Source of the DNA: Rhodothermales bacterium
GTDB taxonomy: Bacteria > Bacteroidota > Rhodothermia > Rhodothermales > Bin80
DNA: 64,000 nt
Assembly: GCA_958296045.1 (NCBI GenBank)
Contig: CATQHT010000002.1
Location: forward strand, 496,001 to 560,000
Direction of reading: 5' to 3'
Position 1 is the stretch's first letter; each line of letters starts with the position of its first letter. A program made the position numbers and the translations under genes. Positions 59,933-64,000 of this stretch are shown here, piece by piece. The notes under the pieces were generated by a model. That model was not told the DNA's origin and did no database searches. It saw only the letters and a program-made list of their open reading frames with translations.

Positions 59933-61675
59933 ATGAGAAAATGCGCGCTATGGCTGGTCCCGTTGCTTCTTATAGTCCCGCAGTCCTTGGCGCAGGTATT
60001 CCGCGGTGCAGTGACGGACGCGGTAAGCGAAGAATCGCTACCCAGCGCGACTGTGCAGGTACTGGGCACGTATCGCGGCACGATCACGAGTGAAGAAGGT
60101 CTGTATGAGTTGAGGGTGGACGCGGTGCCGGTGACGCTCGTGGTGCGCTTTATCGGCTATGAGACGGCTACGCGGACGTTGACCGCTGTTGACCCTGTCC
60201 TGCAGAATTTCAGCCTGTTGCCGTTGCCTGTCGAGATGGCGGCGCTCACGGTAACCGGCGCAAACCCCGCTGTCAACATCATGCGCGAGGTGATTGCGCG
60301 AAAACGGGTGTGGCGCGGTGGGCTTCGCACCTATGAGGCCCAAGCATACAGCCGGTTCAGTCTGTCCGGTGATAGCAGCATCGTCTGGGTAAGCGAGTCG
60401 GCCTCCACGGCGTTCTGGGATCGCGACCGCGGCATGAAAGAGCGCATCACGGGCAACCGTTCCACTTCCAACCCATGGGCGTCCGATGCGGTGATGCCGG
60501 TGGCCCAGACGGTGGCCAACCTGTACGACGACAATATCTTTATCGCCGGTCACAACTTGGTTGGTGTAACACATCCAGATGCGCTAGGCACATACCGTTT
60601 TATGCTGGAAGGTACGCGCGTGTTGGACGGCCTTACGGTATACGATATCCAGGTGGCGCCACGCAACCGGCTTGCTAGCGCCTTTGAGGGCCGGGTGTCC
60701 GTGCTGGACAGCGCGTTTGCAATGATAAGCGCGGAGCTGACTCCCGGCGAGTCGTTTCTGTTTCCTCAGCCTATACAGGAGTATGATGTCACGTATCGCC
60801 AACAATTCTCTTCTTTTGGCGGCGAGTACTGGATGCCAGTGGACTTTCAGAGCGCTATCGTGGCAAAGGTGAGCATGCCAGGCATACTGACGTATCCCCG
60901 ATTCAACATCAGTCATGTGGCTCGTTTTTCTGACTACCGGATCAACACAACGATTCCAGAAGATCTCTTTGCAGACGATAAGCCTATAGTGGTCGACTCG
61001 GCTGCGGTGGAATCGGGCGAAGTTTTTGGCGAGCCTGGACTGGTGGTTCCGCTGACGTCTGAAGAGCAGGCTGCTTATGACAATCCAGATATTGGTGACG
61101 ACCTAGTGGAGACGTTCACGCCTGGGGGCTTGCTGGGTCGATTGATGCAACGGTACGGAGAAGGACCGGGGAGTGGTCGCGCTGAAACAGACAGTTCGGA
61201 CAATGGAAGGCGAGCCTTATTCTCGAATCTGTTACGTCCTGGCATCTGGTATAACAGGGTAGATGGAGCTCACCTGGGGTTAGGTCTGGCAGCGGACCTG
61301 GGGTCCCGCGTGACCGTCGGGGGAGGCGGAGGATGGGCGTCTGGTCTGACGGGGCAAGATCAATGGACCTGGCATGTTACCGCGGGGGTAGAGTCCGAGG
61401 GCACCAACTCGGTGTTCCTCAGGGGTCGTGCAGGAAGTCGTACCGCGCGCCGCTACGGAGAAAAAAGTAAGATTCCGCCACTGTATAACGGGCTGGTGAT
61501 GCTCTCTGGGCGCGAAGACCACTTCGACTATTACCACAATGAAGGGTGGGAGCTGACGGCTGGGCTCAATCTGTCCCGGCTGGACATGCGCCTTGAGGGC
61601 ACGTACAGGAGCGAAGACCATCGGGCGCTGCCCATGACTACAAGCTACGACCTGTTAGCTAGGCCTACCCGGTAA
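59933..61675 (+). CDS. DUF5686/carboxypeptidase-regulatory-like outer membrane protein, C-terminally truncated
   Basis: 580 residues from the ATG at 59933 (MRKCALWLVPLLLIVPQSLAQVFRG signal). Residues about 25-110 are a CarboxypepD_reg-like domain (GAVTDAVSEESLPSATVQVLGTYRGTITSEEGLYELRV, RFIGYETATRTL). The rest matches DUF5686 (MREVIARKRVWRGGLRTYEAQAYSRFSLSG, FSSFGGEYWMPVDFQSAIV). DUF5686 proteins are about 820-850 residues with a C-terminal beta barrel; here the barrel is cut after a few strands by a TAA and the following 310 bases carry no recognisable continuation. It may be non-functional. Confidence 0.75.
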   Translation: MRKCALWLVPLLLIVPQSLAQVFRGAVTDAVSEESLPSATVQVLGTYRGTITSEEGLYELRVDAVPVTLVVRFIGYETATRTLTAVDPVLQNFSLLPLPVEMAALTVTGANPAVNIMREVIARKRVWRGGLRTYEAQAYSRFSLSGDSSIVWVSESASTAFWDRDRGMKERITGNRSTSNPWASDAVMPVAQTVANLYDDNIFIAGHNLVGVTHPDALGTYRFMLEGTRVLDGLTVYDIQVAPRNRLASAFEGRVSVLDSAFAMISAELTPGESFLFPQPIQEYDVTYRQQFSSFGGEYWMPVDFQSAIVAKVSMPGILTYPRFNISHVARFSDYRINTTIPEDLFADDKPIVVDSAAVESGEVFGEPGLVVPLTSEEQAAYDNPDIGDDLVETFTPGGLLGRLMQRYGEGPGSGRAETDSSDNGRRALFSNLLRPGIWYNRVDGAHLGLGLAADLGSRVTVGGGGGWASGLTGQDQWTWHVTAGVESEGTNSVFLRGRAGSRTARRYGEKSKIPPLYNGLVMLSGREDHFDYYHNEGWELTAGLNLSRLDMRLEGTYRSEDHRALPMTTSYDLLARPTR

Positions 61676-61986
61676 TCACTCAAGCAGCTTGACAACGAGC
61701 CCTCAAGGTGCATAGGGCGGGCAGAGTTTGGCCCTTCACCACGCGGTTACCCGACAAGAATAGCATAGCCCTCGTAGCGGGAGGCCGGAGCTTCACGCTG
61801 GAGGTGAATGTTACGCTATTCTAAGTGGTAGATGCGAAGGGTCAAGGCTATTCGCGTAGCGAGCGTGAGTTAAGGGTGTATGCGCCGACCGCGACGGGCG
61901 CGTATATTCCCCTCGCTTTGCGGGCATGCACCTTGCGGAGCGTGCGGTGAGCGAAACCGTTGAGATTGCCGAGCCTACGCCATGCG
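61676..61986. other. Intergenic tract between the truncated gene and the IS4-type element
   Basis: No recognisable continuation of the DUF5686 barrel and no gene. One end of the transposase element should lie here. Confidence 0.4.
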
Positions 61987-64000
61987 CTATGGTGGCTGGC
62001 GCTCCACAAGGTCGTAAATCGCTCCGAGTTCTTCGTAGGCTATGGCGCGCATCTGCAGACTTGCGTACCCACGCCACATGATTTCGTGCCCCGGCGGCGG
62101 GTCGTGCTTTCGGTTCATGTAGCCGCCCATCATCGCCATCAACAAAATTCCCGAGGCGAGGTCCTTAAGTTCGGGAAGGTCGTAATTGCGGGCATAGACC
62201 CGCAACATATACATCTCCGCGTCCGTGAAAATCACTTCCGCGTCCATGCTGGCAGTTACACGCCCCAACAGCGTCATGAGCATGAGCCGCCAGGACGTGA
62301 CGATATACAGCGTTATTACCCGGTGCAGGTTCTCTGCCTGCTGCATACGCAGCTTTTCGACGCGGCAACCCGTCTTGAGTACCCGAAAGGTGTCCTCCAC
62401 GCGCCAGCGCAGGGTGTAGTATTCCAGTATCTGCTCTGCCTCCTGTAGTGAGGTAACCTCCACGGTGGTTAGCAGAAACCACTCAATCCGATCTGCACCT
62501 TTGGGCGGTGCTATCTCACGAACGTGGACCGCGGAGACCTTCACGGGATCTTCGGCAGACCCGCCTGTTGCTGGCAGCCTCACTTGGCGAAAACGCACCT
62601 CCATGCGTGCATTGCGCTTCGGACGGCCCTTGTGCGTGATCCGACCAGACTTCGCCCGAAGACTCAGACGCTCTACCAAGAGCTCCAGCACACCGGCAGC
62701 AGGTCCACGGCGCATGGCTTTAAACAGGCGATCATGGTTCTTACCCAGATTCCGATCGTGTTTGGCCCGAATCAGCACATCGGTCCGCTTCAAAGTGCGC
62801 TGCGCCGCAAAGATCTCGAATGCATCCGCTTCCCGGTCCATCACGCTAAGCACGCGCGTCTTGCGCGGCAGCGTCTGTGCAGCCTCATCTATGTCGCGAA
62901 GCCCGTCAATCCATTGATGCGTCGTGGTTTGCCCTTCCTCTTTTCTGTACGAACACCGTAATACTCCCAAGGGCAATCCCTCGTCGTTCAACGCCAGGGT
63001 CGCGTGCAGATGTACGCCGCGCGCCTGTGCCTTGGTCTGGTTACTACCGATTACTTCCAATCCGTCGCACTGCGGACGTGTGCTGTAACTAATGTCTGTA
63101 CCATCCTGCACGCACAGCACCGTTTTCTGGGTGCGCATCCGCTCAATGGTCCGCTGCCGGTGCGGCGCCAGTATCTTCGCAGGTGTGATGCCGAACCTAT
63201 CGGCCTTCTCGATGAATCGCCAATATCCCCTTACAGCAGCTAAGTCTCGGTTAGGAACCGTGGTTACGGGCTTTCCCATCGTCTTTGCTACTAGTGCCGC
63301 GCTCTTTACCAGACGGGCGGTGCGCCGAATATGGCCCAACGCTGCACCGCCGAATTCCTGTTCCGCCCAAGAGTCGCTCGCCAGCCCAGCGCCCACCTCC
63401 AGCCGGGGTCGCAATTCCACATGCGGTACGCCCAGACGATCGCGCCACGCAGGATCCAGTTCATAGGCGAATACCTTCTTCCGTGAACGCTTTCCCACGC
63501 CGCTCGGTGCATGCCGACCGCGCCCCTGGGTGAGACCTAAGTATTGGAAGCCTGCTGCCTTGAAACACGTACCCTCGTAACGTGGACACACGAAGGTCTC
63601 TACCACGTAAGGTACATACTTATACCGGGCCATGAAGTCGGAGGACAATCGCCGAAACACGCGACCCAGCACGAAGCTCGCCAGATTCTTGCACCGAACA
63701 CTTGGACGAATCAGAAAACGACTCAGGTTCACTACGCGCTTAAGATGGCCGCTGCGCTGCTCATGACTCCAGGCCATCCACCGGTCCCGCGCCTTGAGAT
63801 AAAGCGCAGCGGCAGAGAAACCGACCGCCCCCAGATAACCGTGGGCGCTCTTAATTAGGTAGCGCATTTGTGCTCCCGCAAAGGTGGTCACCCCCCGCGG
63901 ATGCTCTTCGTCCATGAGCGTATTCCAGATGGCGCGATCTTGTGCGCTGTCTACTCGGACGATCTCGAAATCCTCGATCTCGCGCACATCAGCCGGAACG
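61987..64000 (-). CDS. DruA (DUF4338)-IS4/Tn5-type transposase fusion, possibly partial at the window edge
   Basis: The frame is open to the window end; a GTG at 63987 gives 666 residues. Residues 1 to about 195 match DUF4338/DruA: RAIWNTLMDEEHPRGVTTFAG, QMRYLIKSAHGYLGAVGFS, ARDRWMAWSHEQR, FLIRPSVRCKNLASFVLG, YVVETFVCPRYEGTCFKAAGF and GLTQGRGRH. Then comes a Tn5-type DNA-binding domain (SDSWAEQEFGGAALGHIRRTARLV) and an IS4 DDE core: Asp in DGTDISYSTRP, Asp in VMDREADAFEIF, and the YREK motif Y(2)R(3)E(6)K in YYTLRWRVEDTFRVLK. All catalytic residues are intact. DruA is also a component of Druantia anti-phage systems; here it sits on a transposase. Confidence 0.88.
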   Translation of the reverse strand, partial: VPADVREIEDFEIVRVDSAQDRAIWNTLMDEEHPRGVTTFAGAQMRYLIKSAHGYLGAVGFSAAALYLKARDRWMAWSHEQRSGHLKRVVNLSRFLIRPSVRCKNLASFVLGRVFRRLSSDFMARYKYVPYVVETFVCPRYEGTCFKAAGFQYLGLTQGRGRHAPSGVGKRSRKKVFAYELDPAWRDRLGVPHVELRPRLEVGAGLASDSWAEQEFGGAALGHIRRTARLVKSAALVAKTMGKPVTTVPNRDLAAVRGYWRFIEKADRFGITPAKILAPHRQRTIERMRTQKTVLCVQDGTDISYSTRPQCDGLEVIGSNQTKAQARGVHLHATLALNDEGLPLGVLRCSYRKEEGQTTTHQWIDGLRDIDEAAQTLPRKTRVLSVMDREADAFEIFAAQRTLKRTDVLIRAKHDRNLGKNHDRLFKAMRRGPAAGVLELLVERLSLRAKSGRITHKGRPKRNARMEVRFRQVRLPATGGSAEDPVKVSAVHVREIAPPKGADRIEWFLLTTVEVTSLQEAEQILEYYTLRWRVEDTFRVLKTGCRVEKLRMQQAENLHRVITLYIVTSWRLMLMTLLGRVTASMDAEVIFTDAEMYMLRVYARNYDLPELKDLASGILLMAMMGGYMNRKHDPPPGHEIMWRGYASLQMRAIAYEELGAIYDLVERQPP

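Follow-up and report, generated by a model that had tools for sequence, protein, structure and literature searches.

A Mom-like DruA domain fused to a Tn5-type transposase in an insertion sequence of a Rhodothermales bacterium

The DNA analyzed here, a window of 64,000 nt from a Rhodothermales bacterium (assembly GCA_958296045.1, contig CATQHT010000002.1, positions 496,001-560,000 of the forward strand), runs at its right edge into a mobile insertion sequence (IS) of the IS4 family (Tn5-type), the sole gene of which encodes a DruA domain fused to a transposase. We lean towards regarding this domain as an accessory module of transposons, common to several families of DDE transposases, and no part of the Druantia defense system; at least four kinds of transposon, and probably five, carry the module. 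What is new is the GNAT fold predicted for the transposon DruA domain and its homology to the Mom protein of phage Mu, which emerge from profile comparisons and a structural model. The combination of DruA and transposase is itself already in databases, since the RefSeq entry for one DruA-bearing transposase is named "ISAs1 family transposase". Transposase fusions go undescribed in those parts of the literature on DUF4338 (PF14236) that fell within our search, most subscription journals and ISfinder lying outside its scope. Among bacterial transposons, chemical modification of DNA may extend more widely than the known case of the transposable phage Mu.

The insertion sequence, its ends and its targets

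The genome comprises 4.78 Mb in 4 contigs, and full-query copies of the element occur ten times at 97-100% identity (contigs C1, C2, and C3) and once at 88%, along with fragments. Comparison of the copies placed the ends at CTCCCC... and ...GGGTAG, which form an imperfect inverted repeat (IR). CTTGACAAC occupies positions 24-32 in the left and right ends alike, and the right-end repeat is unique within the window. An earlier reading of the letters alone (the sequence-only reading) had proposed that inverted repeats be sought beyond the window's edge; inverted repeats were found, together with an 8-bp target site duplication (TSD).

The window copy is 2915 bp long, compared to about 2675 bp for copies without a duplicated left end. 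Three copies (L001-L003) have that end in tandem duplicate (64339-64579, about 240 bp, 93% identical), and the presence of TSDs at the outer ends of all three indicates that the enlarged unit moved as one. The gene interrupted by the window copy has a large product, the start of which resembles, by eye, a carboxypeptidase-regulatory-like outer membrane protein.

Perfect 8-bp TSDs flank five of the eight copies for which both ends were located: GCCTAGCT (the window copy), CCCTAGCC, GGCTAGCC, GCCTAGGC, and TCCTAGCC. These sites are CTAG-like and centered on CTWR. The architecture of the window IS recurs in two other IS lineages of this genome, with lengths of 749 and 770 aa; copies of these lineages (B and C) with readable ends also show CTAG-like 8-bp TSDs (ACCTAGCC, GACTAGGT, and CGCTTGGT; GGCTTAGA).

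The genome contains 41 DruA matches, 40 of them above the Pfam cut-off. All intact DruA genes that were read are IS copies of these three lineages, with no Druantia gene among them, and the short matches examined as candidate stand-alone genes turned out to be decayed or split IS copies. A Druantia system, defined by DruA with a DruE helicase and DruB-D or other Druantia genes beside it, is not represented among the intact copies read. About 8 kb from one IS copy, L010, there is a frame of 1806 aa (G000:C2:318119, L405) that includes an MZB (PF09369) helicase domain; the region may be a defense island, and no non-IS DruA was found near this frame. Intact relatives from the same family whose transposases are at least 47% identical have frames long enough for DruA (763-773 aa), and the frames of distant Tn5-type copies elsewhere in the order (33% identity), at 481-507 aa, are too short for it.

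The fusion protein

The gene is a single open frame up to the edge of the window (Table 1) and continues past it to an ATG at 64281, for a full length of 764 aa, so that the extension proposed by the sequence-only reading yielded the true start. An assembly join or a pair of ORFs, either of which would have made the fusion spurious, is ruled out by the identical fused frame in about ten near-identical copies on three contigs.

Table 1. Features of the insertion sequence and its surroundings in the window
Feature	Position	Strand	Basis
Gene interrupted by the IS (5' part of a longer protein)	59846..about 61664	+	flanks joined with one TSD give a continuous frame
8-bp TSD AGCTAGGC (- strand: GCCTAGCT)	61657..61664		second copy just past 64579
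IS4/Tn5-type insertion sequence	61665..64000, on to 64579 beyond the window	-	10-copy comparison, TSD at both ends
Right-end imperfect IR (CTACCC...)	61665..61698	+	20/34 match to left end
3' part (670 aa) of the 764-aa DruA-transposase fusion ORF	61987..63999	-	ORF, copy comparison
Tn5 dimerization domain	62059..62301	-	Dimer_Tnp_Tn5
DDE catalytic domain	62311..63105	-	Pfam, conserved residues
E535	62395-62397	-	catalytic DDE
D388	62836-62838	-	catalytic DDE
D299	63103-63105	-	catalytic DDE
Tn5-type N-terminal DNA-binding domain	63208..63372	-	Tnp_DNA_bind, Tn5 chain 1muh, Foldseek
DruA (PF14236) domain, predicted GNAT fold, Mom homologue	63433..63999	-	Pfam, AlphaFold, Foldseek, hhalign
S108 (DruA)	63676-63678	-	residue counts
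R94 (DruA)	63718-63720	-	residue counts
H33 (DruA)	63901-63903	-	residue counts

The N-terminal DruA (DUF4338) domain recognized by the sequence-only reading was confirmed by Pfam, which matched PF14236 to residues 10-163 (E 1.6e-27, 96.9 bits against a cut-off of 27), a match that covers only positions 49-223 of the 297 in the profile. The transposase portion was matched by Tnp_DNA_bind (residues 210-264, E 9.5e-4, under its cut-off), DDE_Tnp_1 (residues 299-563, E 1.5e-11), and Dimer_Tnp_Tn5 (residues 567-647, E 1.4e-6), and NCBIfam NF033590 (IS4 family transposase) scored above its cut-off (E 3.3e-85). Residues 14-463 of Tn5 (PDB chain 1muh) align to fusion residues 209-651, and Foldseek matched the transposase part to Tn5 structures with an E-value of 6e-30 and a TMt of 0.86. 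The entire Tn5 transposase is thus present, including the domain that binds the transposon ends, and DruA is an addition to it. The catalytic residues D299, D388, and E535, along with Y528 and R531 of the YREK motif, are invariant in 23 of 23 fusion proteins, in keeping with the earlier claim that both motifs are intact.

The YREK DDE signature, the terminal IRs, and the short TSD place the element in the IS4 family. It shares with Tn5/IS50-type elements a complete transposase (N-terminal DNA-binding, DDE/YREK, and dimerization parts), IR ends, and a short TSD, and differs from them in its extra N-terminal part of about 300 aa, which includes the DruA/Mom-like GNAT domain, and in its 8-bp CTAG-like TSD.

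Distribution of DruA among transposons

A domain search over contigs of 84,980 genomes yielded 462 relatives, 80 of which were kept, and PF14236 was found in 5 of 248, 17 of 321, 35 of 247, 37 of 300, and 20 of 195 genomes in the sampled groups. For 265 distinct domains, the genomic context was assigned to a class by means of home-made profiles, with Pfam and NCBIfam checks on representatives; 73 of these domains lacked a neighbor that could be classed. In the resulting sample of 176 kept domains (at least 140 aa), which is skewed towards the window's DruA type, an IS4/Tn5 transposase is the fusion partner of 69 and the neighbor of 7; IS66 TnpC adjoins 35 and is fused to 2; and 26 occur with ISAs1-type transposases, 18 with another DDE_Tnp_1_assoc type, and 3 with ISKra4. 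The remainder comprise 11 with NurA/HerA, 3 in Druantia-like loci, and 2 others. The IS66 and ISKra4 partners were confirmed by NCBIfam and the ISAs1-type by Pfam. The search for DUF4338-DDE fusions that the sequence-only reading had called for was therefore successful, and the link between DruA and transposons is a general one. In this biased sample the DruA family is dominated by transposon-linked proteins, and a search for DruA by Pfam or by keyword will include transposases in the tally of defense genes. No relatives were found in the viral contigs searched for the domain; phages held a few, diverged ones.

The full extent of one IS66 unit was traced in Acididesulfobacillus acetoxydans, where TnpC and DruA form one 2714-bp element with matching ends and 8-bp TSDs at three loci (ggtaacgg, cctagaaa, and ttattact). 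Such elements resemble the window IS in joining a DDE transposase and a DruA-family protein in one mobile unit, but the transposase family is another, DruA mostly has an ORF of its own, and the Tyr discussed below is kept. Two loci (L119 and L137) have DruA on the C-terminus of IS66 TnpC (827-828 aa). At locus L200, DruA and a Tn5-type transposase are two ORFs with a 4-base overlap, the window's fusion in split form. In an Arenicellales genome (L078, around 4893), an IS66-type element seems to have its DruA gene interrupted by an IS4/Tn5-type DruA element. The Arenicellales record OY282380 is rich in copies, with about 52 matches.

A tree was built from 104 domains, 90 of them transposon copies and 14 defense, archaeal, or phage copies; support inside its groups is often low. 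Labels of transposase type required 17 changes on the tree, compared to 64.9 in shuffles, indicating that DruA has on the whole kept to one type of transposase, apart from a few exchanges.

Relationship to Mom

When the DruA profile was compared by hhalign with that of 14 diverse phage Mom proteins, the match extended over 155 columns (Prob 97.7, E 1.5e-12), and single transposon groups matched Mom with E-values of 1.3e-7 to 5.8e-11. In controls, seven unrelated families gave E-values of at least 0.017 and 20 column shuffles at least 0.063. Pfam Mom was matched weakly by two transposon DruA copies, under its cut-off, so the domain is best described as a distant relative and not a member of Pfam Mom. 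A phage Mom is also among the top viral matches.

The domain found nothing in the PDB by sequence. Its AlphaFold model (pLDDT 91) retrieved GNAT enzymes from the PDB by Foldseek, and Mom itself (8bv8) was second by E-value (1.7e-6) with the highest TMq of the top 50. Fold and profile together place the domain, as modeled, in a Mom-like GNAT superfamily. Like DruA, the Mom family (PF25680) has a GNAT fold with the motifs H-Y, NR-x-I, NxxS, (S/T)F(A/V)D, and G(T)xxYxA(S/A)N, and the likeness spans the whole Mom domain at about 14% identity. Unlike Mom, DruA has the extra conserved motifs RDxWIGW and GAQxRY and is located on a transposase.

Among the residues compared with Mom are its H48, R101, D139, and Y149, which we take to have catalytic roles. 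The serine replaced in 8bv8, termed an inactive mutant (S124A) in its PDB title, is the last S of Mom NSES when Mom is aligned with that chain, and it aligns with the S of the transposon NLAS stretch. This serine is present in all 90 transposon copies, and H and R are kept in 87 of 88 and 89 of 90, respectively. The D/E and Y positions are kept in most transposon copies; the window copy has C138 and F146 there. These positions are invariant D and Y in the 14 Mom proteins, which makes catalysis by the window element doubtful. The window's clade as a whole lacks the Y of Mom, and the window copy lacks the D as well. Y was replaced by F, L, or I in a set of 14 related copies of IS4/Tn5 type to which all three of this genome's lineages belong, and a single change on the tree accounts for the replacement. 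Despite loss of the Tyr, the DruA domain is under purifying selection, with dN/dS values for DruA and transposase of 0.25 vs 0.35 in one pair and 0.14 vs 0.15 in another in which dS is saturated.

Possible roles of the domain

The architecture, mobility, ends, and TSDs of the element are established by the analysis, as are the homology, residue conservation, distribution, and selection of its DruA domain; the mechanism is inferred. We consider it moderately probable that the added Mom-like accessory module of this mobile Tn5-type IS works as follows. The transposase would bind the IS ends via its own Tn5-type domain and then carry out cut-and-paste transposition, and fusion or co-expression would bring the Mom-like module to that DNA as well. 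Where a family keeps the Mom residues (H, R, S, D/E, and Y) intact, the module would modify bases, by analogy at N6 of adenine, and modified bases in the element or target DNA could serve as marking or protection, much as Mom serves Mu. In the window's clade, where the Tyr was lost and H, R, S, and purifying selection were kept, the module may have an altered chemistry or contribute to the transpososome chiefly by binding DNA; binding or an altered role there seems as likely as base modification. The sequence-only reading had suggested for DruA a role in recognizing DNA ends or targets. End recognition finds no support as stated, in that the Tn5 end-binding domain is retained and the nearest characterized relative, Mom, is a DNA-modifying enzyme and no known end-binding module. 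A part for DruA in target choice would be conceivable, and the element's preference for its targets is strong.

Tn5 and Tn10 are regulated by adenine (Dam) methylation. Mom, for its part, acts on Mu DNA by modifying adenine at N6 (PMC7824862). The two together make base modification the leading idea for the families with intact residues. The broadest form of this idea, which we put forward only tentatively and by analogy, is that Mom-like base-modifying enzymes riding on several unrelated DDE families mark transposon or target DNA and thereby control or protect transposition, and that Druantia DruA would be a diverged branch of them with its active site lost.

It is rather unlikely that transposon DruA is instead catalytically dead everywhere and only binds DNA, setting a CTWR-type target preference or stabilizing the transpososome. 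The CTAG-like target common to three lineages would fit such a role, as would the purifying selection that persists in the window's clade after its single loss of the Mom Tyr. However, outside that clade (IS66, ISAs1-type, and X-type elements) the H, R, S, and Y residues hardly vary and D/E is common, unlike what is expected of a dead fold, and the TSDs of IS66-DruA elements are unrelated. Narrow, palindrome-like targets are also known from members of the IS4 family that lack DruA, for example IS10.

An ordinary GNAT enzyme that acts on a protein (transposase or host) or a small molecule, for instance as a regulator of transposition, is improbable. The fold alone leaves room for a protein or small-molecule acyltransferase, since the acetyltransferases SpeG, PaiA, and RimI are among the top Foldseek matches at similar E-values, and a published note calls DUF4338 a GCN5-like acetyltransferase (GNAT-like) domain (PMC10853773). 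Against this reading, the profile similarity and key residues are shared specifically with Mom, and the conserved strand-helix stretch is NLAS, at the place of NSES in Mom.

Relationship to defense DruA

A canonical Druantia locus was included for comparison. DruA of Druantia type I and the window domain belong to the same Pfam family, with a profile match of about 170 columns (Prob 98.1); defense and transposon DruA profiles match with an E-value of 1.2e-13. Defense DruA is about 400 aa long, covers the whole profile (2-297), and has the motif GAxPPYxxLLGGK, whereas the window domain covers only 49-223; a second motif conserved in Druantia type I DruA is TTSAxGRSSxYNR. The Mom-like H, R, and S of the transposon copies are absent from defense DruA, which sits with DruB-E helicase genes or NurA-HerA, while the window copy sits on a transposase. 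The PADLOC DruA1 model barely reached the fusion protein (E 0.022). That the element captured a Druantia-like anti-phage gene as cargo for host protection is very improbable: the name of the Pfam family (Druantia DruA) and the profile match just cited suggest it, but the domain forms a single reading frame with the transposase and is inherited along with it, all transposon copies lie on one side of a branch from the Druantia and NurA-HerA copies, every DruA copy read in this genome lies in an IS, and the PADLOC score is marginal.

The sequence-only reading had also suggested that defense DruA may derive from transposons. As stated, this goes beyond the tree, which is unrooted and has the 14 defense, archaeal, and phage copies and the 90 transposon copies on the two sides of one branch (SH-aLRT 99); rooting with Mom separates three groups and does not resolve their attachment. 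A transposon origin is possible, though unproven, and the presence of H, R, and S in transposon copies but not defense copies is compatible with it without being a demonstration. Defense DruA gave no match to Mom in direct profile comparison, so the link to Mom runs via the transposon copies. Our literature search found no mechanism for Druantia type I DruA, and homology to Mom, with its solved structure and known chemistry, offers a concrete, testable hypothesis for it.

Full-length DruA proteins (about 400 aa) are often encoded in an operon with NurA-like and HerA-like ATPase genes (L195, L197-L199, L300, L302-L306, L308, and L309; Pfam check on L199). DruA-NurA-HerA is apparently a defense-type system distinct from Druantia. 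An ORF at L194, taken at one point for a full-length DruA, turned out to be a hemerythrin/PAS protein. At L303 (8257-11388), a 1043-aa protein with an N-terminus that looks, by eye, like a GHKL-type ATPase lies between DruA and NurA. Proteins of about 680-1240 aa at L209, L311, and L313 have the DruA domain in two pieces and are possibly part of another defense system; two of them adjoin very large genes.
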